Positions 8,386 through 23,067 of a stretch of DNA of 23,493 nt are shown here, one piece after another (position 1 is the stretch's first letter; every line of letters starts with the position of its first letter). Location of the stretch: positions 1 through 23,493 of IMG/VR virus record IMGVR_UViG_3300027881_000081, one strand, 5' to 3'. Source of the stretch: a virus. The position numbers and the translations under genes were made by a program. Under the pieces are notes generated by a model. The model saw only the letters and a list, made by a program, of their open reading frames with translations. It searched no databases and was not told the DNA's origin.

Positions 8386-9495
8386 TTAAATCGCTGTGTC
8401 GCAAACGAGTAGACCGAAGTCTTCGTCTGTCGACGTCAGGTTGCTGTTAAATACCGGCTTGAGGAAGCCAAAGAGTTTTCCGACCGAGATACCTTGTTTG
8501 TTATCGTAGTCGAAGCCCTTTTCAACCCACTCAGGCGCACCAATGTCAGCAAGGCCCATCGCTTGCGCGCCGCAGAACAGAACTCGTTGTCCTTCGACGT
8601 CCGAACCAGCGCCCCATTTCTGAGAGCCGGAAGTGCCACCAACTGTGTTAAACACATGGCGGTACTCGTGGATCATCAGCCCATCCACCAAGACGGTGTC
8701 TGTGCCCTTGAACAACTCATTGCTATTACCGCGAACACCCGCGTTACGGACGTTTGCCAAGTAATCAGCGTCCTGACGAAGTTTCGCCATGCCCTGAGGC
8801 GTCATGAAGACATGGTAGAACTCTTGTCCACCCGGTCCCTTGATACCGCGGATATAGCTGACTTTCGCCTGTGCTTTCAGCTCAACCAGCATCGCCCAGC
8901 TTGGAGTATCAGCGGCAACGACAGAGGCCGTTGAGCCTGCTTCCAAACCAGTCGTCGCATCCCAGCGATAATGACGGTTGGTTGACGGTGCAGTCACTGC
9001 ACTGGCGTATTCCAAGCCGGCGAACGTAGTGGAACTACGGGTACCGCCTCGGTTAGTCAGTGAGTAAGCAACACCGGACAGGGTCAGGAAGGCAAGCTGA
9101 TCGATGCGATCGGCAAGCCAGTATGCGAGCACGTCTCGCGACTGCTCTCGGAAGTTCACGACGCTCTTTTGATCAGCGAGGCGACCTTTGTGCTTGTTGG
9201 CGTTTCGGAGTTGATCCAACGTAATGACTTGGTCATACGCTTTGATTTCCTCTTCATTGCCTTCCAGTTGGTCATCGCCACCGATGCCGTCCTCTTCGAG
9301 GTCAGCAACGAGGGTCAGAACCGCACGGGTTCCCTTCTCTGATTTCGTCAGCTCCGTGACACGCTGAATCATAGCGTTCGGACCAGATCCCTGGAACTTA
9401 GTGATGAACGCAAAGTTTCTTGCGGCCTTCCACATCTGTCGGGACCAAACAGTCTTCTGCTCGGATGTCAGTGCGTTAAAGTTTGTGACAGCCAT
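8386..9495 (-). CDS. Major capsid protein (DUF4043/N4-gp56-like)
   Basis: A 369-aa protein beginning MAVTNFNALTSEQKTVWSRQ. The N-terminal part contains the pattern typical of this capsid group: GSGPNAMIQRVTELTKSEKG, LVADLEEDGIGGDDQLEGNE (about residues 84 to 103), ITLDQLRNANKHKGRLADQ, then DVLAYWLADRIDQLAFLTLSG. This matches the DUF4043 (Phage_capsid_3) / N4-gp56 group with an HK97-like fold; length is typical. The SD is AAGGAG, and the start codon lies inside a small palindrome (AGCCAT t ATGGCT, 9490 to 9502). A sigma70-type promoter and structured leader lie directly upstream, so it can be transcribed independently of the scaffold gene, which would help make capsid protein in excess. It forms the phage head shell. 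Confidence 0.9.
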   Translation of the reverse strand: MAVTNFNALTSEQKTVWSRQMWKAARNFAFITKFQGSGPNAMIQRVTELTKSEKGTRAVLTLVADLEEDGIGGDDQLEGNEEEIKAYDQVITLDQLRNANKHKGRLADQKSVVNFREQSRDVLAYWLADRIDQLAFLTLSGVAYSLTNRGGTRSSTTFAGLEYASAVTAPSTNRHYRWDATTGLEAGSTASVVAADTPSWAMLVELKAQAKVSYIRGIKGPGGQEFYHVFMTPQGMAKLRQDADYLANVRNAGVRGNSNELFKGTDTVLVDGLMIHEYRHVFNTVGGTSGSQKWGAGSDVEGQRVLFCGAQAMGLADIGAPEWVEKGFDYDNKQGISVGKLFGFLKPVFNSNLTSTDEDFGLLVCDTAI

Positions 9496-9510
9496 TATGG
9501 CTCTCCTTAT

Positions 9511-9581
9511 TTAAGCGAAACAAAATGTTTGGCGCATCCTGCGCTATCGTCCCTTTTCCGTTGGGATACGTGTTTCGCTAA
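9511..9581 (-). promoter_or_regulatory. Branched structured leader of the capsid mRNA
   Basis: Arms AGCGAAACA (9514 to 9522) and TGTTTCGCT (9571 to 9579) pair over 9 bp and enclose two further hairpins: GCGCA tcc TGCGC (9532 to 9544) and a CCC...GGG stem within 9548 to 9567. On the minus-strand transcript this is a three-way-junction-like fold ending a few bases before the SD AAGGAG of the capsid gene. It could stabilise the abundant capsid mRNA or set its translation rate. Seen by eye only; the folding energy was not computed. Confidence 0.45.
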
Positions 9582-9630
9582 GAGAGCAGCGGGCTCAGCC
9601 GAGTTTCACGCCAGGCTAGGGCGAAAGGAG

Positions 9631-9660
9631 ATTATAACGCGGTTCTTTCCAGATACGCAA
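9631..9660 (-). promoter_or_regulatory. Sigma70-type promoter for the major capsid gene
   Basis: On the minus strand a -35 TTGCGT (9660 to 9655) is followed after 18 bases by a perfect -10 TATAAT (9636 to 9631). Transcription would start near 9624 and give a leader of about 130 nt before the capsid ATG at 9495. It is the best promoter match noticed in the window and implies use of host RNA polymerase for at least this late gene. Confidence 0.65.
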
Positions 9661-9670
9661 GCACTTTTTT

Positions 9671-9837
9671 TATGCCCGAGCGGGCATATTTCGGGGATAT
9701 ACCTAATTAGGTATAAGGATGCTCCCGAGCGGGATGAAGCGCTACGGCATATAATTCCGGAGAATTATACGCTATGGCGTATACCGGAGAATTATACGCT
9801 ATGGCGTATACCGCAGGTCGGGGTGACCTGCGGTATA
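9671..9837. repeat. Cluster of perfect palindromes between scaffold and capsid genes
   Basis: This non-coding stretch holds, in order: TATGCCCG ag CGGGCATA (9671 to 9688); an 18-bp perfect palindrome TATACCTAATTAGGTATA (9698 to 9715); a second CCCGAGCGGG (9724 to 9733); ATAATTC cgga GAATTAT (9751 to 9768); TATACGC tatg GCGTATA twice (9766 to 9783 and 9793 to 9810); and a 13-bp perfect stem TATACCGCAGGTC / GACCTGCGGTATA with loop ggggt (9807 to 9837). None has a T-run placed to make a standard leftward terminator. It begins 8 bases after the scaffold stop on the transcript and may act as an RNA processing site, transcript barrier, recombination site or protein-binding site. Confidence 0.75.
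9757..9810. repeat. 27-bp perfect tandem repeat, two copies
   Basis: Copies at 9757 to 9783 and 9784 to 9810 are identical over 27 bases. Each starts CCGGAGAATTATACGC and contains the palindrome TATACGC tatg GCGTATA. A degraded part-copy (CGCTACGGCATATAATT) precedes them. This is non-coding. Confidence 0.9.
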
Positions 9838-9844
9838 AAAAGTG

Positions 9845-13296: not shown

Positions 13297-15132
13297 CTAT
13301 GCCGCCATAGAATTGTTTAGGCCTTTTCGTCCGGCCACGTATCCGGCAAGTTTCGACTTCCAGCTCTTATTCTTTTTGCGGCGCTCACCTTTATTGCGAG
13401 AGTAGCCACTCCAAGTTTGAGTCGCAAGCATCTTACCGAGCCACGCAGCGGCGTCTACGCGATCATCATTTACACCGTTCGGGAACCGTAGCAATTCGTT
13501 GATGTACTCGGTTACCCACAGGGCGCCTTCTGGCCAGAGAACTCTGCCGTACGCCATCAGGCCCTGAATCGATCGCGCACGTAGCTGCTTATCAGCCTTG
13601 CCGGGTTTGAGTTCCTCGTAATGGAAGTCGTAGCGTTTCTCAACCCGGATCCTGCTTTGCAGGAAAGAGTCCATAGTAAGCGATATGTGACCTTTTTCCA
13701 AGCCAAATTTTCGCGGATGGTACTTATCCTGGATTTTGAACATGACATCGATGATCTCATTGGAGTTCCAGCGTCCGCGGAATTCATCGAGCATGTAGAT
13801 ATTTCCGGCCTGATCCAGCCCCGCCACGAGAAAAACGGTCCAGTTCGCCTGATCTGTCTTCGAAATAGCGAAGTCGCCGGCACAATAAATATCTAGGTGC
13901 TCCGGGGGGTTTGACTGATAGTAGCGAATATCTTTCTTCTCGAAGTAGGCCCCCTCCTCGACTTGCGGATTTTGCTGATACAAAGCCGCCCAATCGCGCG
14001 GTGCAAGCGTGCGTTTGATTTTCGCCAACGACCTGAATGGATATCGGTCCTCGTGGAGCGCCTCCCCACGGAGCCGGTAGTCCTCGTCGCCAGTTGCCAT
14101 TGCCGGGAAGTCGACGACTTTCCAGCGGTCAGCATCCTCTGGCCACTCGCCAGTCTCGTTCAATTCCTTCTGCGCCGACGCCATTTCGTTGAGCAGCCAT
14201 CCGGTCAAGTCGTCGTCGTGCCACCGAGTCTGAATGATCAGTATGCCGCCACCGGGCGCCAGCCGGGTGTAAAGTGTGGACGAGTACCAAGCCTTAGCGC
14301 CCTCTCGGACGGTTTGGCTCTCGGCCTCTTCCCGGTTCTTCACCGGATCGTCAATGATCGCAATATGCGCGCCACGGCCGGTTATCGGGCCGCCGACACC
14401 TGCCGCTAGGACCCCACCCCCCGTACGGGCGTTCTTATCCAAATCGAATAAGCTCCATCGCTCGATGGCCTCGTTCTTCTTGGTGATGCCCAAGTTACCG
14501 AAAAGCAGGTGGTAGTCGGCCGATTTGATCAGCTCCTGGATTTTACGGGAGAAGTCCATCTGGAGCGACTGCGCATAGCTCGTGTTTATGAATTCGTGCT
14601 CGGGGTGGTTGCCCAAGTGCCATGCAGGGAAATACTGCGACGCTATGAGTGACTTGCCGTGCCGGGGAGGCACAGTGATCATCAGCCGGGGAGATTCACC
14701 CGCGCAAACCGCGCGCGAGAACTCCATCAGCTCGTCGCAAATGACTTTGTGGACCCACCCGGAGATATAATTCGGCTCGTACCGCTGGATGAACGCCAGC
14801 AAATGCCGCTTGGCGAGTGCGCGTTTGTGGATTTCCTCTGAGGCGGCTTGTTCGCGCGTCAATTCGCGCTTGGCATAGGTCTCGCGTGCCGTTTTGCGCT
14901 TCTTAATGCGGCGCGCTTCCAATATCCGCGCCTGCTTAGCCATCGCAGCTTGTGCTTGCGTGGCCGCGAGCATGTCTTTGCCCTCTTCATCGGCGCAGAT
15001 CGAGCAAATGCCCGTCTTTTCCCAATGCAGCGTGATTTTTCTACACGCGGAGCATTCAGCTCGGTATTTTAGTGCTTCCTGCGGCATCCTTGCCATCCGT
15101 TTCAAGTAGCTCGACCTTTCGATCGGCCACAC
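13297..15132 (-). CDS. terL: Terminase large subunit (TerL)
   Basis: A packaging ATPase-nuclease. With the GTG start at 15132 it is 611 aa. That start has AAGGGG nine bases upstream; ATGs at 15096 and 15087 are alternatives, and an upstream TTG at 15150 has no SD. Near the N-terminus a CxxC...CxxC zinc-ribbon-like element is present (SACRK and CSICADE, residues 27 to 46). The ATPase domain shows the Walker A-like VPPRHGKS around residue 155 and Walker B IAIIDD around residue 257. The C-terminal RNase H-like nuclease has acidic residues in AGDFAIS (about 420), GLEKGH (about 479) and NDDRVDAAAW near the end. It overlaps the 3' end of the small subunit gene and precedes portal, the classic packaging cassette. 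The zinc ribbon is an addition relative to many TerL proteins. Confidence 0.93.
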   Translation of the reverse strand: MWPIERSSYLKRMARMPQEALKYRAECSACRKITLHWEKTGICSICADEEGKDMLAATQAQAAMAKQARILEARRIKKRKTARETYAKRELTREQAASEEIHKRALAKRHLLAFIQRYEPNYISGWVHKVICDELMEFSRAVCAGESPRLMITVPPRHGKSLIASQYFPAWHLGNHPEHEFINTSYAQSLQMDFSRKIQELIKSADYHLLFGNLGITKKNEAIERWSLFDLDKNARTGGGVLAAGVGGPITGRGAHIAIIDDPVKNREEAESQTVREGAKAWYSSTLYTRLAPGGGILIIQTRWHDDDLTGWLLNEMASAQKELNETGEWPEDADRWKVVDFPAMATGDEDYRLRGEALHEDRYPFRSLAKIKRTLAPRDWAALYQQNPQVEEGAYFEKKDIRYYQSNPPEHLDIYCAGDFAISKTDQANWTVFLVAGLDQAGNIYMLDEFRGRWNSNEIIDVMFKIQDKYHPRKFGLEKGHISLTMDSFLQSRIRVEKRYDFHYEELKPGKADKQLRARSIQGLMAYGRVLWPEGALWVTEYINELLRFPNGVNDDRVDAAAWLGKMLATQTWSGYSRNKGERRKKNKSWKSKLAGYVAGRKGLNNSMAA

Positions 15133-15574
15133 GCTCAAATTCCCCTTCAAGCGTTAGGTTATTCTGGTTAGCGAGCTGCATCAGCTCTTTCAGCGGCATG
15201 TTCTCCAGCTTCATTTCGTGTGTGTGCGTGTGTTCGTGCTCGACAACCACCGGCGCCTGCACTCCGTGGAGCTTAATCAGCTCTCTGACCGCGGCAATTT
15301 GCTCCATGGCCGTGTCGGCGGCGCGAAACGCCTGCATGAGCATGTCGTGCGCCTCCCGGCGCGTGAATCCGACTTCATCCGCGAATACCTGCGTCGCAGA
15401 GACGAGCGCCTCCATAACGTGCGGCCGCTTTTCGATCTCGTACGCCATTTTCTTCGCGCCGGCGAATCCAGCCGACGTGGCAGACGCTACCTTAGATAGG
15501 CCTGACAGACGGTTTTCGCAATAAATGCGCTCCTTAGGATTAAGATCCTGGAAGCACGATGCGAGGTTTGTCAT
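15056..15574 (-). CDS. Terminase small subunit-like protein
   Basis: A 172-aa protein from the ATG at 15574, chosen because AAGGGAAGAAG lies directly upstream; a GTG at 15601 is in frame but has no such site. The N-terminal 45 residues (NPKERIYCENRLSGLSKVAS then TSAGFAG) have the typical helix-turn-helix of small terminases, and residues 65 to 105 look helical for oligomerisation. A His/Glu-rich run EHEHTHTHE (about 112 to 120) might bind metal. Small terminases recognise packaging sites and stimulate TerL. The gene overlaps TerL downstream and the 91-aa gene upstream. Confidence 0.82.
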   Translation of the reverse strand: MTNLASCFQDLNPKERIYCENRLSGLSKVASATSAGFAGAKKMAYEIEKRPHVMEALVSATQVFADEVGFTRREAHDMLMQAFRAADTAMEQIAAVRELIKLHGVQAPVVVEHEHTHTHEMKLENMPLKELMQLANQNNLTLEGEFERVADRKVELLETDGKDAAGSTKIPS

Positions 15575-18605: not shown

Positions 18606-19109
18606 GTAGGCGCCGAATAGTCCGTGCAGGACCTCGTGGCCAATACTCATGGTTGCGTTGTCGTCGACACTTGTCGGGCGCTCGACGTAGATATCGCAGT
18701 AGCTGATATTGAATTCGGGCTTCTTCTCGCAGTCAGAAGCGGCACTCCAATCACGGGTGCCGAAAATGTCGCCCATTTCGGAGGTCATTTCCTCCACGGA
18801 GTCGTACCAGTGCACGGTGACCACGATGTTGTCGACCTCGAATTCCTTGACCAACTCCGGAGCGTACGGGGCGTAGCACCGCTCATTCTCCAGCTCCTCG
18901 GGCTCCTCGGCACTTGCCGCGGCGGACGCGAAAAACACGGCGAGGGCGCTGGCTATCCAGAAGCCCCACATGAATCCTTTCCAGCGGGCGCGAAACTCTC
19001 GGCGTTCACAGACAGAGTCACGTGCGTACAGCCGAAGCACTTCCTTGTGCTCCAGCCAAACTCCATCCCGCGCGTTCCCCTGCTCGGAGGGGGCGCAGAG
19101 TCCCCTCAT
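18597..19109 (-). CDS. Membrane-anchored or secreted HExxH metallopeptidase-like protein
   Basis: A 170-aa protein. From the ATG at 19109 (ATGA overlap with the Tad2-like gene) it has a basic N-terminal 46 residues, then a hydrophobic segment MWGFWIASALAVFFASAAAS (47 to 66) with an AxA cleavage-like site before EEPEEL. An internal ATG at 18971 with AAAGGA upstream would give a plain signal peptide. The extracytoplasmic part contains Cys78 and two further cysteines and ends in GHEVLHGLFGAYHD, with the zinc-peptidase signature HEVLH at 158 to 162 and another His at 169. This suggests a zinc-dependent hydrolase acting at the envelope, for example on peptides or cell wall. No family is named. A 36-aa out-of-phase ORF within its 5' part was also seen but is weakly supported. 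Confidence 0.65.
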   Translation of the reverse strand: MRGLCAPSEQGNARDGVWLEHKEVLRLYARDSVCERREFRARWKGFMWGFWIASALAVFFASAAASAEEPEELENERCYAPYAPELVKEFEVDNIVVTVHWYDSVEEMTSEMGDIFGTRDWSAASDCEKKPEFNISYCDIYVERPTSVDDNATMSIGHEVLHGLFGAYHD

Positions 19110-19372
19110 GACTGTTGAACTGCCCAGTCGTCAGCGAGCAGATCTGATTGTGAAGCGATCCACGGCACAACTGATCCATTGGCGGTAACCATGTCGATGT
19201 GCGACTGATACGTGATTTCCTTACCGCGCGGGTAGATGCCCAAAAGAGGCTTGCGATTGACTTCGAAGTGGGAGCCATCGACGAGGAAGATGAACATGTT
19301 TTGGCCATTCCAGCCTTTACGGAAGAGTCGTTCGCCGAGTTTGATGCGTTTCAGTGCGTCTGAAAAATTCAT
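19106..19372 (-). CDS. tad2: Tad2-like anti-Thoeris protein (DUF2829)
   Basis: An 88-aa protein matching the DUF2829/Tad2 family throughout: MNFSDALKRIKLGERLFRKG with the RKGWNG motif (18 to 23), MFIFLVDGSHFEVNR then PLLGIYP (26 to 48), HIDM (58 to 61), and the family-typical VPWIASQSDLLADDW (69 to 83). Tad2 proteins form oligomers that bind and sequester the cyclic ADP-ribose-type signal made by the bacterial Thoeris TIR enzyme, preventing the effector from triggering host death. Length is that of the family. It is the first gene of the leftward cluster, next to the divergent promoter region, so probably expressed early. The ATG is preceded by AAAAGGACACCCCT. Family assignment is from motif recall; activity in this phage is inference. 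Confidence 0.88.
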   Translation of the reverse strand: MNFSDALKRIKLGERLFRKGWNGQNMFIFLVDGSHFEVNRKPLLGIYPRGKEITYQSHIDMVTANGSVVPWIASQSDLLADDWAVQQS

Positions 19373-19407
19373 AGGGGTGTCCTTTTATTAGCTTATATGA
19401 CGTGCGA

Positions 19408-19466
19408 ATTCTAGCTTAATCTGCTCTTTAAAGCACCTTAAGCCGGTTAAAGTGCTTTTAAGAGCA
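19408..19466 (-). promoter_or_regulatory. Candidate leftward promoter and operator-like inverted repeat
   Basis: A minus-strand -10-like TAGAAT (19413 to 19408) lies 35 bases before the Tad2-like ATG. Where a -35 would fall there is a long inverted repeat: TGCTCTTTAAAGCAC (19422 to 19436) against GTGCTTTTAAGAGCA (19452 to 19466), 14 of 15 paired, with TTAAgccggTTAA in its centre. No good -35 hexamer exists, so an activator or repressor bound to the repeat may govern the promoter. Confidence 0.4.
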
Positions 19467-19486
19467 CATTGGGGTGTGGGCCATCG

Positions 19487-19524
19487 TTAGGTTATTGTGT
19501 TGCGCGTTCATTAGGTTATTGTGT
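19487..19524. repeat. Direct repeat pair TTAGGTTATTGTGT
   Basis: Identical 14-mers at 19487 to 19500 and 19511 to 19524, 24 bp apart (start to start), in the divergent region. TTGTGT and TATTGT hexamers 16 bp apart (19495 to 19522) make a weak rightward promoter candidate. Could be binding sites of a phage regulator. Confidence 0.6.
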
Positions 19525-19576
19525 CGAATTTGGCCATATGCAGGGAGTATGGCGGTGGGGGCTGCGGAAGTCAAGT

Positions 19577-19625
19577 AATACCTCAGCGTGGGACAAAAAC
19601 CTGGAAATCACTGAGGTATTTTTTT
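19577..19625 (+). terminator. Rho-independent terminator on the plus strand
   Basis: Perfect 10-bp stem AATACCTCAG (19577 to 19586) and CTGAGGTATT (19611 to 19620), followed directly by TTTTT. Loop of 24 nt. No plus-strand gene lies to the left, so the terminator would end only a short transcript from about 19480 to 19530: either a small RNA or a leader/attenuator for the rightward operon. Confidence 0.65.
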
Positions 19626-19659
19626 CTGTGAAAAAAAGACAAAGCCGGTTATATAGGGG

Positions 19660-19727
19660 GGGACTGAGTCACTGCGTGACGAGGTCACCTAGCCACAAAA
19701 CGCCGAGTGACTACGTCACTCAGTCGT
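19660..19727. repeat. GTNAC array, first block
   Basis: GGGAC at 19660, GTCAC 19668, GTGAC 19676, GTCAC 19684 and GCCAC 19692 are spaced exactly 8 bp; after a 15-bp step GTGAC 19707, GTCAC 19715 and GTCGT 19723 continue in 8-bp spacing. Because GTNAC is self-complementary around its middle base, neighbouring units pair as small hairpins, for example GAGTGAC tac GTCACTC (19705 to 19721). Confidence 0.75.
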
Positions 19728-19736
19728 TTGGCTAGG
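19688..19736 (+). other. Long compound hairpin followed by TTTT
   Basis: CCTAGCC (19688 to 19694) pairs with GGCTAGG (19730 to 19736), AAACG (19698 to 19702) with CGTTT (19725 to 19729), and GAGTGAC (19705 to 19711) with GTCACTC (19715 to 19721), giving a 49-nt rod with a tac loop. TTTT follows at 19737. On the plus-strand transcript it could be a terminator/attenuator or a stable leader structure. Confidence 0.6.
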
Positions 19737-19740
19737 TTTT

Positions 19741-19768
19741 CAAGGAACCTTCTTTCGAAGTTTCCTTG
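19741..19768 (+). other. Second tandem hairpin
   Basis: CAAGGAA (19741 to 19747) pairs with TTCCTTG (19762 to 19768) and CTTC (19749 to 19752) with GAAG (19757 to 19760), leaving a single c/t mismatch and a 4-base loop. It begins four bases after the preceding hairpin, so the two could stack. Confidence 0.65.
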
Positions 19769-19789
19769 TACGTGCACTCTTGGTGCTGT

Positions 19790-19842
19790 GTGACTTGGTT
19801 ACTGAGTGACTTTGTCACTCGGTGACTGAGTGGCGCGGTGGA
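19790..19842. repeat. GTNAC array, second block: five units in perfect 8-bp phase
   Basis: GTGAC 19790, GTTAC 19798, GTGAC 19806, GTCAC 19814 and GTGAC 19822 follow each other every 8 bp; GTGGC 19830 and GTGGA 19838 continue the phase in degenerate form. The consensus unit is GTNACTNN. ACTGAGTGAC ttt GTCACTCGGT (19801 to 19823) forms a 10-bp hairpin with one G-T pair. The next palindrome, CAC tac GTG (19867 to 19875) inside TTTGATCAC...GTGATTCAAA (19861 to 19882), keeps the same 8-bp half-site spacing. Non-coding. Confidence 0.85.
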
Positions 19843-19963
19843 GCGCCGAAAAACCCCGAGTTTGATCACTACGTGATTCAAACTAATTGAGTTGGGTGTG
19901 TCTTCACCCTCACTACGTTCGGGTGTTGGTTGTGGTTATGTTCTTAACTAAATGGAGTGTGTT
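19843..19963. other. Remainder of the divergent region, leader of the rightward operon
   Basis: This contains the TTTGATCAC / GTGATTCAAA imperfect palindrome (19861 to 19882), a CACCC...GGGTG hairpin (19905 to 19925) and an A/T-rich stretch with a weak TATGTT -10-like word near 19936, then AATGGAG as SD for the first rightward gene. I see no strong promoter and no credible ORF in it. Confidence 0.5.
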
Positions 19964-20107
19964 ATGTATCGCATCGCCTACATCAATGATGACCTTGACA
20001 TCATCGTAGATACCACCGTCTCTCACCTTGGCCTCGCCAATCGCCTTTGCGAACTACGCCATCGTGCCTTCCCCGATCGTACCTACTTCGTTGTACTACC
20101 TGCCTAA
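19964..20107 (+). CDS. 47-aa early protein
   Basis: First rightward gene, ATG 19964 with GGAG six bases upstream. The product MYRIAYINDDLDIIVDTTVS then HLGLANRLCELRHRAFPDRT and YFVVLPA has a balanced, acidic-to-basic small-domain composition: strand, helix, strand. The frame ends in a TAA that sits in the loop of a 7-bp hairpin (ACTACCT gccta AGGTAGT, 20095 to 20113). Not recognised. It is supported by SD, codon coherence, and position at the head of a series of similar short genes. Confidence 0.7.
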   Translation: MYRIAYINDDLDIIVDTTVSHLGLANRLCELRHRAFPDRTYFVVLPA

Positions 20108-20110
20108 GGT

Positions 20111-20157
20111 AGTTGCTATACGGTTGGCCTGCTTGCAGGCCTCCCGCATATCAACCA
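20111..20157 (+). repeat. 47-nt leader hairpin repeat, copy 1
   Basis: Identical to copy 2 (20449 to 20495) except one base. Core hairpin GGCCTG cttg CAGGCC (20126 to 20141), flanked by TATACGG and CCGCATA, which pair except at one A/C position, and by GGTT...AACC. It ends 18 bases before the presumed start of the next gene and directly precedes its SD. Confidence 0.9.
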
Positions 20158-20174
20158 CCCACTAGGAGATCGCT

Positions 20175-20447
20175 ATCTTACACACTAACCAACAATCTGT
20201 GATTGACACGTTGCCCGTTGCCTCTAGGCACGGTGCTCAATTCTTTATTGACTATGCGCGTAATCGTGACGCCTGCAACCCCCGTGGTTGCATCGGTGAA
20301 CTCACCATGCGTGCCATCTGCCTGACACAGGCAGAGCACTACTTGGCATACGAGCCCGTTGACGACGACAACGACTACGAAGATGATGACTACAATACCC
20401 CGGTAGATGGTTGCCATTGCTCGGAGTGCTTAGACCTACGTAGTTAG
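20175..20447 (+). CDS. 90-aa acidic protein with C-terminal cysteines, possible ATC start
   Basis: The open frame covers the SD TAGGAG (20163 to 20168). Six bases after it, where a start is expected, stands ATC (20175), not ATG. The first conventional start, GTG 20199, is 30 bases from the SD. From ATC the product is about 90 aa: LHTNQQSVIDTLPVASRHGA, AQFFIDYARNRDAC, an acidic run EPVDDDNDYEDDDYN, and GCHCSECLDLRS at the end, a CxCxxC knuckle that may bind zinc. The coding sequence contains several perfect hairpins (20274 to 20292, 20318 to 20334). Function unknown. The start choice is unresolved; the stop (20447) is firm. Confidence 0.65.
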   Translation: MLHTNQQSVIDTLPVASRHGAQFFIDYARNRDACNPRGCIGELTMRAICLTQAEHYLAYEPVDDDNDYEDDDYNTPVDGCHCSECLDLRS

Positions 20448-20448
20448 C

Positions 20449-20495
20449 AGTTGCTATACGGTTGGCCTGCTTGCAGGCCTCCCGTATATCAACCA
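20449..20495 (+). repeat. 47-nt leader hairpin repeat, copy 2
   Basis: Same sequence as copy 1 with T in place of C at 20485, which completes the outer stem: TATACGG (20455 to 20461) with CCGTATA (20482 to 20488) around the inner GGCCTG cttg CAGGCC (20464 to 20479). Ends 15 bases before the ATG at 20510. Confidence 0.9.
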
Positions 20496-20509
20496 GAGAG
20501 GACTTGACA

Positions 20510-20665
20510 ATGCTATACATCTTGATGTTTGGGTTTTACCCCACGGCGTGTGACGTACCTGCGTACGCACACGAACTGTACTTCGACTCACGTGCTGCTG
20601 CCCTTGACTACGTCAAGGCCGAGCACATCCGCTTCTTCGAGCTTCACGAGGAGTGGCTGGGCTGA
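20510..20665 (+). CDS. 51-aa early protein (YFDS module)
   Basis: ATG 20510 is preceded by AGAGAGGACTTGACA, a good SD; the frame is open further upstream only through the leader repeat. The product starts MLYILMFGFYPTACDVPAYA and continues HELYFDSRAAALDYVKAEHI. The segment YFDSRAAALDYVK resembles PYFDSYQLAATYLL of the 114-aa gene at 21676 and EFLEALDYVK of the 60-aa gene at 21035, suggesting a shared small fold. A perfect CCTTGAC tac GTCAAGG hairpin (20602 to 20618) lies in the coding sequence. Function unknown. Confidence 0.78.
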   Translation: MLYILMFGFYPTACDVPAYAHELYFDSRAAALDYVKAEHIRFFELHEEWLG

Positions 20666-20679
20666 GTACCTACCATATC

Positions 20680-20722
20680 GGTAATAGCCGGTTGGGCTGC
20701 TTGCAGTCCTTCCGAGTGTTAA
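20680..20722 (+). repeat. Leader hairpin repeat, copy 3 (diverged)
   Basis: Same plan as copies 1 and 2: CGG tt GGGCTG cttg CAGTCC tt CCG (20689 to 20714). GGGCTG pairs with CAGTCC through a G-U pair, so the RNA hairpin is kept although the sequence has changed. It ends 17 bases before the ATG at 20739, just upstream of AAAGGAG. Confidence 0.8.
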
Positions 20723-20738
20723 CTGAAAGGAGAACGTA

Positions 20739-21038
20739 ATGATTGAAGCTGGACTGATTAGCGCTGTTGCACTGTTCTTGGTGCTTGCCCGCTTTAACCT
20801 TCGCCGCATTTGTGGCTACCGTACGCTTGTCGACATCGGTGCCACAACTGTGTTTGTGCTCATGTTTTTGGGCACGTACGCTGGCATGATGACTGGCCTT
20901 GTTGCCGGTGCATTAGTTTCACTGATGCTCAACATCATCACCAAGCTGTATGGCTACGAACGTGCGCACTTGGTTCGCATGCAGGGCCACCTGCTGCCGA
21001 CATTCGTGTGGACTTCCACGCCTGGGAGACTTTCATGA
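20739..21038 (+). CDS. 99-aa small membrane protein
   Basis: ATG 20739 has the ideal SD AAAGGAGAACGTA. Hydrophobic segments at about residues 3 to 18 (EAGLISAVALFLVLAR), 30 to 48 (TLVDIGATTVFVLMFLGTY) and 50 to 67 (MMTGLVAGALVSLMLNII) indicate three membrane helices with a basic cytoplasmic-type loop (RFNLRRICGYR). The C-terminal 30 residues are polar and basic. Early phage membrane proteins often serve superinfection exclusion or membrane takeover, but nothing specific is seen. The stop overlaps the next start (ATGA). Confidence 0.8.
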   Translation: MIEAGLISAVALFLVLARFNLRRICGYRTLVDIGATTVFVLMFLGTYAGMMTGLVAGALVSLMLNIITKLYGYERAHLVRMQGHLLPTFVWTSTPGRLS

Positions 21039-21217
21039 TGTACGCAGTTGTAACCAGCACGCGTCCACGGCAGTGGACGACACGCCTTCGCTGTTTTGCT
21101 GAGTTTCTAGAAGCTCTTGACTACGTCAAGGAGCTGAAACTTGAGCAAACAGGCGATGACGTCTACATCGAGCCGCTTGAGGACGATGAAGACTTGTTCT
21201 ATTCCATCAACAGCTGA
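21035..21217 (+). CDS. 60-aa early protein (ALDYVK module)
   Basis: Starts at ATG 21035 (or the adjacent ATG 21038), overlapping the membrane gene's TGA, with GGGAG upstream. The product MMYAVVTSTRPRQWTTRLRC, then FAEFLEALDYVKELKLEQTG, ends in an acidic tail (DEDLFYSINS). ALDYVK is shared with the 51-aa protein. The SD is preceded by the palindrome GTGGA ct TCCAC (21008 to 21019), and a 10-bp stem with one bulge spans the ALDYVKEL codons (21112 to 21135). Function unknown. Confidence 0.75.
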   Translation: MMYAVVTSTRPRQWTTRLRCFAEFLEALDYVKELKLEQTGDDVYIEPLEDDEDLFYSINS

Positions 21218-21227
21218 GGAGAGCTGT
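21210..21227 (+). promoter_or_regulatory. SD presented in a hairpin loop
   Basis: ACAGCT (21210 to 21215) and AGCTGT (21222 to 21227) pair perfectly, and the 6-base loop is GAGGAG, the SD for the ATG at 21228. The stem ends directly at the start codon. This could expose the SD constantly or make initiation dependent on opening the stem. Confidence 0.65.
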
Positions 21228-21530
21228 ATGAGCATTGCTGTTGTTAGTAAACGTACTCACCGTGGTAACGGTGAGTACATTGGGCGACCGTCGCCATTGG
21301 GCAATCCCTTTGTGATTGGCCGTGATGGCGACAGGGCGCAAGTCATAGATCTCTACGAGCAGTGGCTCACAGAGATCTGGAACGCGGGCGGCTCAAATGC
21401 TCAGCTTACTGAGCTGTTTCGCCTTGCGGAGATACACCGCGACAAAGAGTCTTTGACTCTTGTCTGCTGGTGTGCTCCGGCGCGTTGCCACGGAGACGTA
21501 CTCGTCTCCTTCATTGAGAGGATTTCATGA
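21228..21530 (+). CDS. DUF4326 family protein
   Basis: A 100-aa protein from ATG 21228 with a GAGGAG SD; upstream in-frame codons overlap another gene. It shows both family hallmarks: YIGRPSPLGNPF (17 to 28) and LVCWCAPARCHGDVL (78 to 92), the latter with three cysteines and a histidine that may bind a metal. DUF4326 proteins are found in phages and bacteria and have no established function known to me. The gene is crowded with perfect hairpins, including an 11-bp stem GTACTCACCGT / ACGGTGAGTAC (21253 to 21278), an 8-bp stem (21347 to 21378), a 10-bp stem with a bulge (21441 to 21464) and a 7-bp stem (21492 to 21509). The stop overlaps a following ATG. Confidence 0.85.
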   Translation: MSIAVVSKRTHRGNGEYIGRPSPLGNPFVIGRDGDRAQVIDLYEQWLTEIWNAGGSNAQLTELFRLAEIHRDKESLTLVCWCAPARCHGDVLVSFIERIS

Positions 21531-21673
21531 TGATGCACCGTCTCGCATACACCCGACCAGGCTACGCCTGTTCGTGTGTGCGGGCCGGGCACGACCCCGC
21601 TTTACGTGATCGAATAGCAACCTCGCTTCACTCGGTTGTTTATTGTCTTTTTGTCTTTAACCAGAGGATATGA
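21527..21673 (+). CDS. Possible 48-aa ORF with gene-end-like sequence, weak
   Basis: ATG 21527 overlaps the preceding TGA (ATGATG) and the frame runs 48 codons to TGA 21673. The product (MMMHRLAYTRPGYACSCVRA...) has no recognisable domain. Its end DRIATSLHSVVY matches ERIATSLRSVVG near the end of the 116-aa gene at 22017, because both share the repeat GCAACCTCGCTTC...GGTTGTT. No separate SD. It may be a real coupled gene, a decayed duplicate, or simply leader DNA with hairpins. Confidence 0.3.
   Translation: MMMHRLAYTRPGYACSCVRAGHDPALRDRIATSLHSVVYCLFVFNQRI
21617..21640 (+). repeat. 24-nt hairpin repeat, copy 1
   Basis: Matches 22305 to 22328 at 23 of 24 positions. It consists of GCAACCTCGCTTC followed by ACTCGGTTGTT; CAACC and GGTTG pair. 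It lies 36 bases before the ATG at 21676. The other copy sits in coding sequence about 36 bases before the ATG at 22364. Confidence 0.8.
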
Positions 21674-21675
21674 TT

Positions 21676-22020
21676 ATGCGTTATGCATTGTATTGTTTTG
21701 ATTTGGGCTTACTTGAAGCTGATGGTTCACCATACTTTGATAGCTATCAATTGGCTGCAACCTACTTGCTCAATCATCCTGCGCTGGAAGGCTGTGTCAT
21801 TCTGTCTCAGGCTACGACTGAAACAGATCGCAAGTATTTGGGCGATGACTGGCAGTGCACGCACTGCCTAGACATCGAAGATTGCACAGTGTGCAACCCC
21901 AAATACAAAGATGCAACCATTGAAACTTGTGCTCGCTGTGTCGAGCAAACCGGCGCCAAGTCTGTACAAACTTGGCACCTTGATGGACAGTGCTTGCACT
22001 GTCAAGGGAGAAAAGCATGA
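21676..22020 (+). CDS. 114-aa protein: YFDS module plus zinc-knuckle cysteines
   Basis: ATG 21676 is preferred to ATG 21670 because AGAGG is only two bases from the latter and eight from the former. The N-terminal part MRYALYCFDLGLLEADGSPY then FDSYQLAATYLLNHPALEG resembles the 51-aa early protein. The C-terminal half carries four CxxC pairs: QCTHC, DCTVC, TCARC and QCLHC, suggesting two zinc sites. The coding DNA from 21737 to 22003 is an almost continuous string of perfect hairpins. The stop overlaps the next ATG (ATGATG). Possibly a small zinc protein binding nucleic acid or a host protein; no family recognised. Confidence 0.8.
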   Translation: MRYALYCFDLGLLEADGSPYFDSYQLAATYLLNHPALEGCVILSQATTETDRKYLGDDWQCTHCLDIEDCTVCNPKYKDATIETCARCVEQTGAKSVQTWHLDGQCLHCQGRKA

Positions 22021-22367
22021 TGCACCTTATCTTTAAGCCGTACGTGTACGTGTACCACGCTACATCGATGCAGTACGTGCTAGCCGCTGTTGTGGCGACA
22101 AGCGACCTGGAGGTCGCTTTCGCTGACACCAACACCGGAAGCACTGCCGACGGTGGTCACTGGCGTAACAACCGCGGCGTGCTGAGCACGCTTGCATCAC
22201 GGCGCTCCACGAGCGTTGGCGATATCCTTGAGCGTGATGGGCGGCTGTACCTCGTTGAGCCCACGGGCTTCACCGTGCTACGCATGACTCGTGCCGAACG
22301 CATTGCAACCTCGCTTCGCTCGGTTGTTGGTCGACTACGCAAATTCATTGAAAGGAGTAAATCATGA
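22017..22367 (+). CDS. Hypothetical 116-aa protein
   Basis: ATG 22017 (MMHLIFKPYVYVYHATSMQY) with AAGGGAGAAAAGC upstream, overlapping the previous stop. Residues 18 to 40 (SMQYVLAAVVATSDLEVAFA) are hydrophobic but probably part of a folded domain. A beta-type segment GDILERDGRLYLVEPTGFTV follows at about 68 to 87, and a basic helical tail (RMTRAERIATSLRSVVGRLR) ends the protein. A perfect 8-bp hairpin (AAGCGACC tgga GGTCGCTT, 22100 to 22119) and another at 22177 to 22191 lie in the coding sequence. Family not recognised. The end overlaps the SLOG gene (ATGA). Confidence 0.75.
   Translation: MMHLIFKPYVYVYHATSMQYVLAAVVATSDLEVAFADTNTGSTADGGHWRNNRGVLSTLASRRSTSVGDILERDGRLYLVEPTGFTVLRMTRAERIATSLRSVVGRLRKFIERSKS
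22305..22328 (+). repeat. 24-nt hairpin repeat, copy 2 (within coding sequence)
   Basis: Differs from copy 1 at one base (G for A in the loop) and encodes ATSLRSVV of the 116-aa protein. CAACC and GGTTG form the stem. Confidence 0.8.
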
Positions 22368-22885
22368 ATAATGCATACGCAGGTATTGGCGCACGCAAGA
22401 CGCCGGATGGGATGTTGTTATTGTTCACCAGCATTGCCAAGCGTCTTGAAGGGCGCGGTTACACACTACGTAGTGGTGGCGCACCCGGCGCTGACTCTGC
22501 TTTTGAACGCGGTGTGCTCTGCGGTGATAACCAGGAGATCTTCCTGCCTTGGAAGGGCTTCAACAACAACCCCAGTAAGCAGTGGTTCATAAGTGAGGAC
22601 GCTTATCAGATGGCTGCTGAGTTCCATCCTCGTTGGGCTGCTTGCTCACCAGCGGCTCGTAAGTTCCACGCACGCAACTGTTACCAAGTGCTTGGATTTA
22701 CCTTGATTGATCCGGTGGACTTCATTGTGTGCTGGACACCTGGAGGTAAGGTTGCGGGCGGAACTGGACAAGCCTTGCGCATCGCACAAGCGCACAACAT
22801 CCCTGTCGTCAACTTTGGGCGGGAAGACCTGTTGTGTTCACCAATGGAAGAGCTGCGCAAGCTCGTCGTAGGAGAAGGCGTATGA
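22364..22885 (+). CDS. SLOG/DprA-like nucleotide-binding protein
   Basis: A 173-aa Rossmann-type protein, ATG 22364 preceded by GAAAGGAGTAAATC. Motifs typical of the SLOG superfamily (DprA/LOG-like) are present: YAGIGARKTP (5 to 14), TLRSGGAPGADSAFERG (34 to 50), FIVCWTPGG (120 to 128) and GGTGQALRIAQAHNIPVVNF (132 to 151). The GGAPGAD and GGTGQAL loops form the phosphate-binding site in this fold. SLOG proteins bind or process nucleotides and nucleotide-derived signals; some serve in DNA uptake, others sense or cleave signals in defence systems. Phage versions are common but mostly uncharacterised. With a Tad2 homologue in the same genome, a role in handling a defence signal is conceivable; this is inference only. 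Confidence 0.85.
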   Translation: MNNAYAGIGARKTPDGMLLLFTSIAKRLEGRGYTLRSGGAPGADSAFERGVLCGDNQEIFLPWKGFNNNPSKQWFISEDAYQMAAEFHPRWAACSPAARKFHARNCYQVLGFTLIDPVDFIVCWTPGGKVAGGTGQALRIAQAHNIPVVNFGREDLLCSPMEELRKLVVGEGV

Positions 22886-23067
22886 AAACGTGCATGAGGT
22901 TGTGGTTTGCCCGTATCCGCTATTGTTTTAGCGACTACGGCCCATTCTGCTGGGTACATGGTACGTACCTGCATCATGGACAATGCGTACATTGCCACCT
23001 AGCAGAAGAGCGCACTCGAATATCTGGGCTTTATGCCCTTCATCCCGAAAAGGAGAAATGGTCATGA
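22882..23067 (+). CDS. 61-aa zinc-knuckle-like protein
   Basis: ATG 22882 overlaps the SLOG stop and has AGGAGAAGGCGT upstream. The product MKTCMRLWFARIRYCFSDYG then PFCWVHGTYLHHGQCVHCHL has a C/H cluster; HHGQCVHC closely matches DGQCLHC at the end of the 114-aa protein. A short polar tail follows (HPEKEKWS). Probably one zinc bound by Cys and His residues. Function unknown. Confidence 0.75.
   Translation: MKTCMRLWFARIRYCFSDYGPFCWVHGTYLHHGQCVHCHLAEERTRISGLYALHPEKEKWS

Follow-up and report, generated by a model that had tools for sequence, protein, structure and literature searches.

The rightward genes of virus record IMGVR_UViG_3300027881_000081 (IMG/VR) are saturated with inverted repeats that form short hairpins, both in the leaders ahead of the genes and inside coding sequence. 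This 23.5-kb linear record, a 23-kb fragment analysed over its full 23,493 nucleotides and called the window here, carries a rightward block that is presumed, from its gene layout, to be the early region. The saturation is real. By the standard count used here (perfect stems, 6 bp or longer, loop 3–8 nt), rightward genes hold 6.2 hairpins per kb against 1.3 per kb in leftward genes, and their 18 hairpins compare with 5.5 ± 2.2 in synonymous-codon shuffles (0/1000). At stems of at least 7 bp, 12 are seen against 2.1 ± 1.3 (0/1000). The leftward genes match their shuffles (23 vs 23.0 ± 4.8), with a mild excess of 5-bp stems having loops of 3–4 nt (60 vs 36.7 ± 4.9). We see an even chance that these hairpins reflect an early mRNA structured in two layers, in which leader hairpins are accompanied by selected hairpins in the coding sequence.

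This saturation had been proposed by a sequence-only reading of the DNA, and all 19 of the repeats that it listed proved to be self-complementary, with the bulges that it described at 21112-21135 and 21441-21464 needed for pairing. Only at 21931-21946 does the geometry differ: the inverted repeat exists, but the 5 bp given for it belong to a 6-bp stem whose loop is 6 nt. The two outcomes named as fatal to the proposal, equal hairpin numbers in synonymous shuffles or equal density in the structural genes, were not found, because the rightward genes exceed their shuffles and the leftward genes sit at expectation. While its repeats are genuine, that list missed the strongest structures of the region, three 47-nt hairpins (family A; Table 1), because they are intergenic.

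Family A defines the leader layer in the window. Its three copies, which contain small internal mismatches, follow the pattern GTTG.TATACGG.TT.GGCCTG(CUUG)CAGGCC.TC.CCGTATA.T.CAAC, and the 61-nt stretches around them fold at −23 to −26 kcal/mol, with z-scores of −3.1 to −4.2. Copy 1 reads CCGCATA in place of CCGTATA and lies upstream of the Shine–Dalgarno (SD) sequence of an open reading frame (ORF) listed from GTG at 20199, with a possible ATC start at 20175; in copy 3, the third inner pair is altered on both sides, from C-G to G-U. The placement of hairpins relative to start codons, evaluated over 78 heuristically called genes, is far from random: 33 hairpin centres fall between −60 and −30, where 9.7 are expected (Poisson p 4e-9), and the interval from −30 to +30 is depleted (7 vs 19.1, p 1e-3). 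A repeated element of another kind, B, occurs twice in the window and is only weakly folded; its first copy overlaps a short upstream ORF, and its second folds no better than shuffles (z +0.5). Non-coding leader DNA at about 19.66-19.93 kb is likewise dense in hairpins. This divergent leader holds an array of GTGAC-nnn-GTCAC hairpins (19671-19724, 19705-19721 and 19793-19831), a further hairpin at 19741-19768 and, at about 19577-19625, a long inverted repeat with a T run at its end. As a separate observation, a good SD sequence is followed by ATC at the place of the start codon, downstream of a leader hairpin, both at window 20160-20200 and at L118:8952-8990 (G004); these sites are possibly non-canonical ATC starts, or else mis-called genes.

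Table 1. Positions in the window of the hairpins, repeated elements and genes considered here (MFE, minimum free energy; CDS, coding sequence).
Feature	Position	Strand	Remarks
Terminase large subunit	13297..15150	-	places phage as KPP25-like; query for relatives
Non-coding divergent leader	19373..19963		between leftward and rightward genes
Family A, copy 1	20111..20157	+	MFE −25.6 kcal/mol for 20105-20165, z −4.1
Family A, copy 2	20449..20495	+	MFE −26.0, z −4.2; inner stem ends 30 nt before start 20510
Coding hairpin CCTTGAC(TAC)GTCAAGG	20602..20618	+	core again at 21116-21130; similar TAC-loop hairpin at 19705-19721
Family A, copy 3	20679..20725	+	68% identical, z −3.1; inner stem ends 29 nt before start 20739
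Longest coding hairpin, 11 bp, 4-nt loop	21253..21278	+	near 5' end of DUF4326 gene (21228-21530)
Element B, copy 1	21608..21640	+	contains GCAACCTCGCTTCACTCGGTTGTT; inverted-repeat centre ~48 nt before start 21676
Five hairpins nearly back to back	21851..22003	+	in CxxC-rich small gene 21676-22020
CUUG-tetraloop hairpin, 7 bp	21986..22003	+	near CDS 3' end, 13 nt before next start
Element B, copy 2	22296..22328	+	centre ~48 nt before start 22364
DprA-like gene	22364-22885	+	hairpin-poor end of saturated block

Some related phages share the saturation. The phage belongs with the KPP25-like podoviruses: its nearest terminase matches are Aeromonas phage phiA008 (43%) and Pseudomonas phage KPP25 (35%), the order of its head genes agrees, and in both phages, as in the window, small genes run rightward, divergently, from the corresponding point. 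Among 80 terminase-related and 26 DprA-related loci, the small-gene side is hairpin-dense in six phages: L005 (G001), L014 (G004), L053 (G002), L077 (G003), L075 (G005) and L107 (G006). Their hot blocks exceed synonymous shuffles 4.4- to 7.9-fold, and the rest of the same records 1.0- to 2.2-fold; these ratios are somewhat flattered, since the blocks, with heuristic gene calls, were picked after their density was known. Phage N4 exceeds expectation 2.9-fold in its early genes (13 vs 4.5) and 2.2-fold in its middle genes (16 vs 7.2). No saturation is seen in KPP25, phiA008, two Kochitakasuvirus relatives or L024. Loop lengths for stems of at least 7 bp, pooled over the seven hot blocks, peak at 3 nt (41 vs 1.9) and 4 nt (55 vs 3.0), the excess fading by about 10 nt, and UNCG/YNMG-type tetraloops number seven in sense and none in antisense.

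These controls bear directly on the idea that the hairpins follow simply from base composition or codon usage. It has a precedent in G007, where a high hairpin count is mostly compositional (ratio 1.3), so that raw counts can mislead; in the window and the six phages, however, most of the signal disappears on synonymous and on codon-order shuffling. Composition was therefore rejected as the cause and is, to our judgement, extremely improbable.

The leader layer of the relatives supplies the covariation that had been suggested as a check. G001 and G004 together contain 18 copies of a UNAC-tetraloop hairpin, GGGYAUC-n-C(UNAC)G-n-GGUGCCC, the fullest of 13–17 bp, mostly located 29–45 nt upstream of starts preceded by an SD sequence. 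Aligned, the 18 copies are paired in 90.9% of cells and have both sides changed in 9 of 14 pairs; the covariation score is 0.534 compared with 0.185 ± 0.026 in shuffles, and the signal is lost when the partners are slid out of register. Being related within each genome, the copies do not amount to 18 independent tests. Of two conserved U·G pairs, one occurs in 11 and the other in 16 of the 18 copies, and the sense strand folds at −24.6 kcal/mol versus −18.2 for the antisense. A covariance model detects more copies in L006 and L010/L011; three extra contigs obtained with a wide pattern search scored at chance level with the same model and were discarded. G002 and G003 each have a separate family at a similar place, with a GAA loop in G002 and an ATA or GTA loop in G003. 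Mean upstream fold energy is below that of random positions in the same block in G001–G004, and slightly so in the window; it is not lowered in KPP25, phiA008 or L024. An exact-pattern search of other viral contigs did not find family A, and Rfam gave 0 matches above the gathering threshold in the window, L084, L014, L053 and L077.

In these relatives, the leader layer is an RNA-level one. Selected RNA structure, one of the meanings offered by the sequence-only reading, is well supported for leader hairpins by their placement, by covariation and conserved U·G pairs in relatives and by the energy advantage of the sense strand; for coding hairpins it is not demonstrated, as both strands are stabilised about equally and positions are mostly non-homologous.

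Several observations about the leaders count against a two-layer early mRNA. Family A has three copies only, and its covariation alone is not significant (55/500 shuffles); the antisense of copies 1 and 2 folds no worse than the sense; some genes of the window have no such leader hairpin; and relatives such as L024, KPP25 and phiA008 do without.

The coding layer is harder to interpret. With 85 nt ahead of each start removed, the count away from starts is still 71 stems of at least 7 bp, where 12.6 are expected, so hairpins are about five-fold enriched between leaders. They fold with z-scores of −26.6 in sense and −19.1 in antisense. Further points against selection on coding mRNA come from here: over the seven phages the strand difference gives no clear asymmetry (z −1.1), the pairing register in codons reveals no preference for synonymous sites, and orthologous DUF4326, membrane, CxxC and DprA-like genes mostly differ in hairpin positions. 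Terminating pairs are equally often G·T and A·C (65 and 66), although this test has little power because rRNA likewise fails it (6:7). For fold energy, Escherichia coli rRNA, used as a control, gives z-scores of −6.0 in sense, −2.3 in antisense and −2.8 for the difference. Strand asymmetry is clear in G002 alone (z −4.6), and among imperfect stems with one mismatch G·T is somewhat commoner than A·C (41:24, and 17:5 in the longest), a mild lean towards RNA.

Strand symmetry, perfect Watson–Crick stems and unconserved positions are what would be expected if template-switch (quasi-palindrome) mutation, a described route to perfect stems (PMC8794818), kept producing inverted repeats that fast-evolving, weakly constrained early genes tolerate, with the coding hairpins functionless. 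This explanation, also raised by the sequence-only reading, gained one candidate case: at G004 50124-50143, four substitutions within 8 nt relative to a 93%-identical L024 gene make or break a stem. Such a cluster could have been left by template switching or by successive compensatory changes, in either direction, and it is the single one of its kind seen. The protein sequence also bears a slight imprint, as codon-order shuffles yield 11.2 hairpins and synonymous shuffles 18.1, against 113 observed. On the other hand, residues under hairpin arms are 49% identical, compared with 46% for the others; being conserved like the rest, they indicate hairpins fitted within protein constraint, unlike arms overwritten by copying. 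Template switching alone, moreover, leaves the avoidance of the ribosome-binding site by hairpins unexplained and does not accommodate a leader layer that looks selected. We consider it rather unlikely as the full account, though still a serious contender. Close relatives of the hot genes were sought and almost none were found, and the near-identical pairs L075/L078 and L010/L011 have too few differences to follow hairpin evolution.

The same symmetric, perfect stems with loops of 3–4 nt could instead work at the DNA level, extruded or on a single strand. They might, for instance, be promoters of the N4 kind, read by an RNA polymerase that recognises hairpins; N4's early hairpin AAGAAGC-TCC-GCTTCTT resembles several 7-bp leader stems with a 3-nt loop (GAGTGAC-TAC-GTCACTC). 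The terminase, however, is KPP25-like and its best matches are not N4-like; no virion RNA polymerase was recognised within the window, itself a fragment; tens of hairpins of unrelated sequence are not promoter-like; and the leader family of the relatives is conserved at the RNA level, with U·G pairs. With a KPP25-like terminase and hairpins too many and too varied, N4-type promoters were dropped, and a structured single-stranded intermediate, as suggested earlier, found no specific support. A DNA-level function is thus improbable.

Returning to a two-layer early mRNA, the rightward, presumed early, operon would yield a highly structured polycistronic transcript, in which many genes have a strong RNA hairpin 30–60 nt upstream of the start, just 5' of the ribosome-binding site. 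Each such hairpin belongs to a repeated, phage-specific family, with a CUUG tetraloop in the window and a UNAC tetraloop in G001, G004, L006 and L010, and would most likely insulate its cistron by acting as a processing or stall site and as a protective cap for mRNA fragments, while leaving the ribosome-binding site open, a role that may be likened to that of RNase III sites in T7 and CUUCGG hairpins in T4. Leader hairpins probably insulate, process or protect early mRNAs. For the coding hairpins we lean towards diffuse selection on early mRNA structure, most likely for a compact transcript that withstands Rho or nucleases; new stems might be supplied by template-switch mutation. Taken together, the saturation is probably functional in part.

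Known systems resemble parts of this arrangement. T7 RNase III processing hairpins sit between early genes, and the long stems with internal loops of family A appear similar as early intercistronic hairpins of a podovirus. The CUUCGG hairpins of T4, which carry a UNCG tetraloop, are stable, recurrent and mostly intergenic, and mRNA-stability roles have been proposed for them (Tuerk et al. 1988, per PMC8948821). Like them, the hairpins described here are short, very stable tetraloop structures that recur within one phage and, in the leader layer only, are intergenic. They differ in that the C(UUCG)G loop is absent from the leaders, where the window has G(CUUG)C and the relatives C(UNAC)G, and in forming repeated families 30–60 nt 5' of early genes beside many coding hairpins; a few UUCG/UACG loops occur in hot regions of other phages. 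The phiEco32-like phage 7-11 has a stable GTTCGG-loop hairpin before its sigma-factor gene (PMC8948821), likewise in a podovirus gene leader, but as one copy and not as an early-operon family. In cluster K mycobacteriophages, the SAS/ESAS elements, whose consensus is lineage-specific, contain inverted repeats and recur ahead of the translation starts of several non-structural genes; ESAS consists of imperfect 17-bp repeats with a variable spacer, adjoining the 13-bp SAS GGGATAGGAGCCC (PMC3203893). Inverted repeats upstream of several non-structural start codons are common to both systems, whereas the fixed tetraloop and covarying stems are particular to the one described here. Inspection of the window leaders did not find the 13-bp SAS GGGATAGGAGCCC beside 17-bp imperfect repeats.

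Other features of the window and its relatives deserve a record. Within the CxxC gene, two hairpins coincide with QC-x-HC amino-acid motifs, and more generally QC-x-HC zinc-knuckle-like motifs match palindromic codons in two small proteins (21851-21868, 21986-22003 and 22979-22998). The leftward genes include the terminase, portal, major head protein, a SU10-type adaptor and an internal virion protein. Hairpins form a second cluster away from the early region: ahead of the major head protein gene, 349 nt of non-coding DNA (9496-9844) are dense with palindromes, the longest of 13 bp, and two CCGGAGAATTATACGCTATGGCGTATA units among them are nearly identical. The divergent non-coding region contains two tandem 24-nt repeats with a TTAGGTTATTGTGT core (19477-19524), perhaps promoter- or end-related, and is adjoined on its leftward side by a gene (19106-19372) for an 88-aa protein with a Tad2-like (Thoeris anti-defence) domain (PF11195 at 5e-23). 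L053 (G002) bears an array of short direct and inverted repeats (ATTTTTTTCGCAAAAAAT and CCCGTACATC units) at 8590-8860, on its early/late gene boundary.

These phages present a strong nucleic-acid signal in early genes of unknown function, in which a leader part that is clearly RNA-level can be separated from a puzzling, strand-neutral coding part. It is possible, if doubtful, that this podovirus group uses an undescribed strategy in which the whole early transcript would be a chain of hairpins, comprising a covarying leader family and selected coding hairpins, evolved repeatedly with different sequences, and with a dedicated protein that might read the loop and the U·G pairs. The coding hairpins, for their part, offer a good natural case for weighing selection on mRNA against template-switch mutation as the source of perfect stems.

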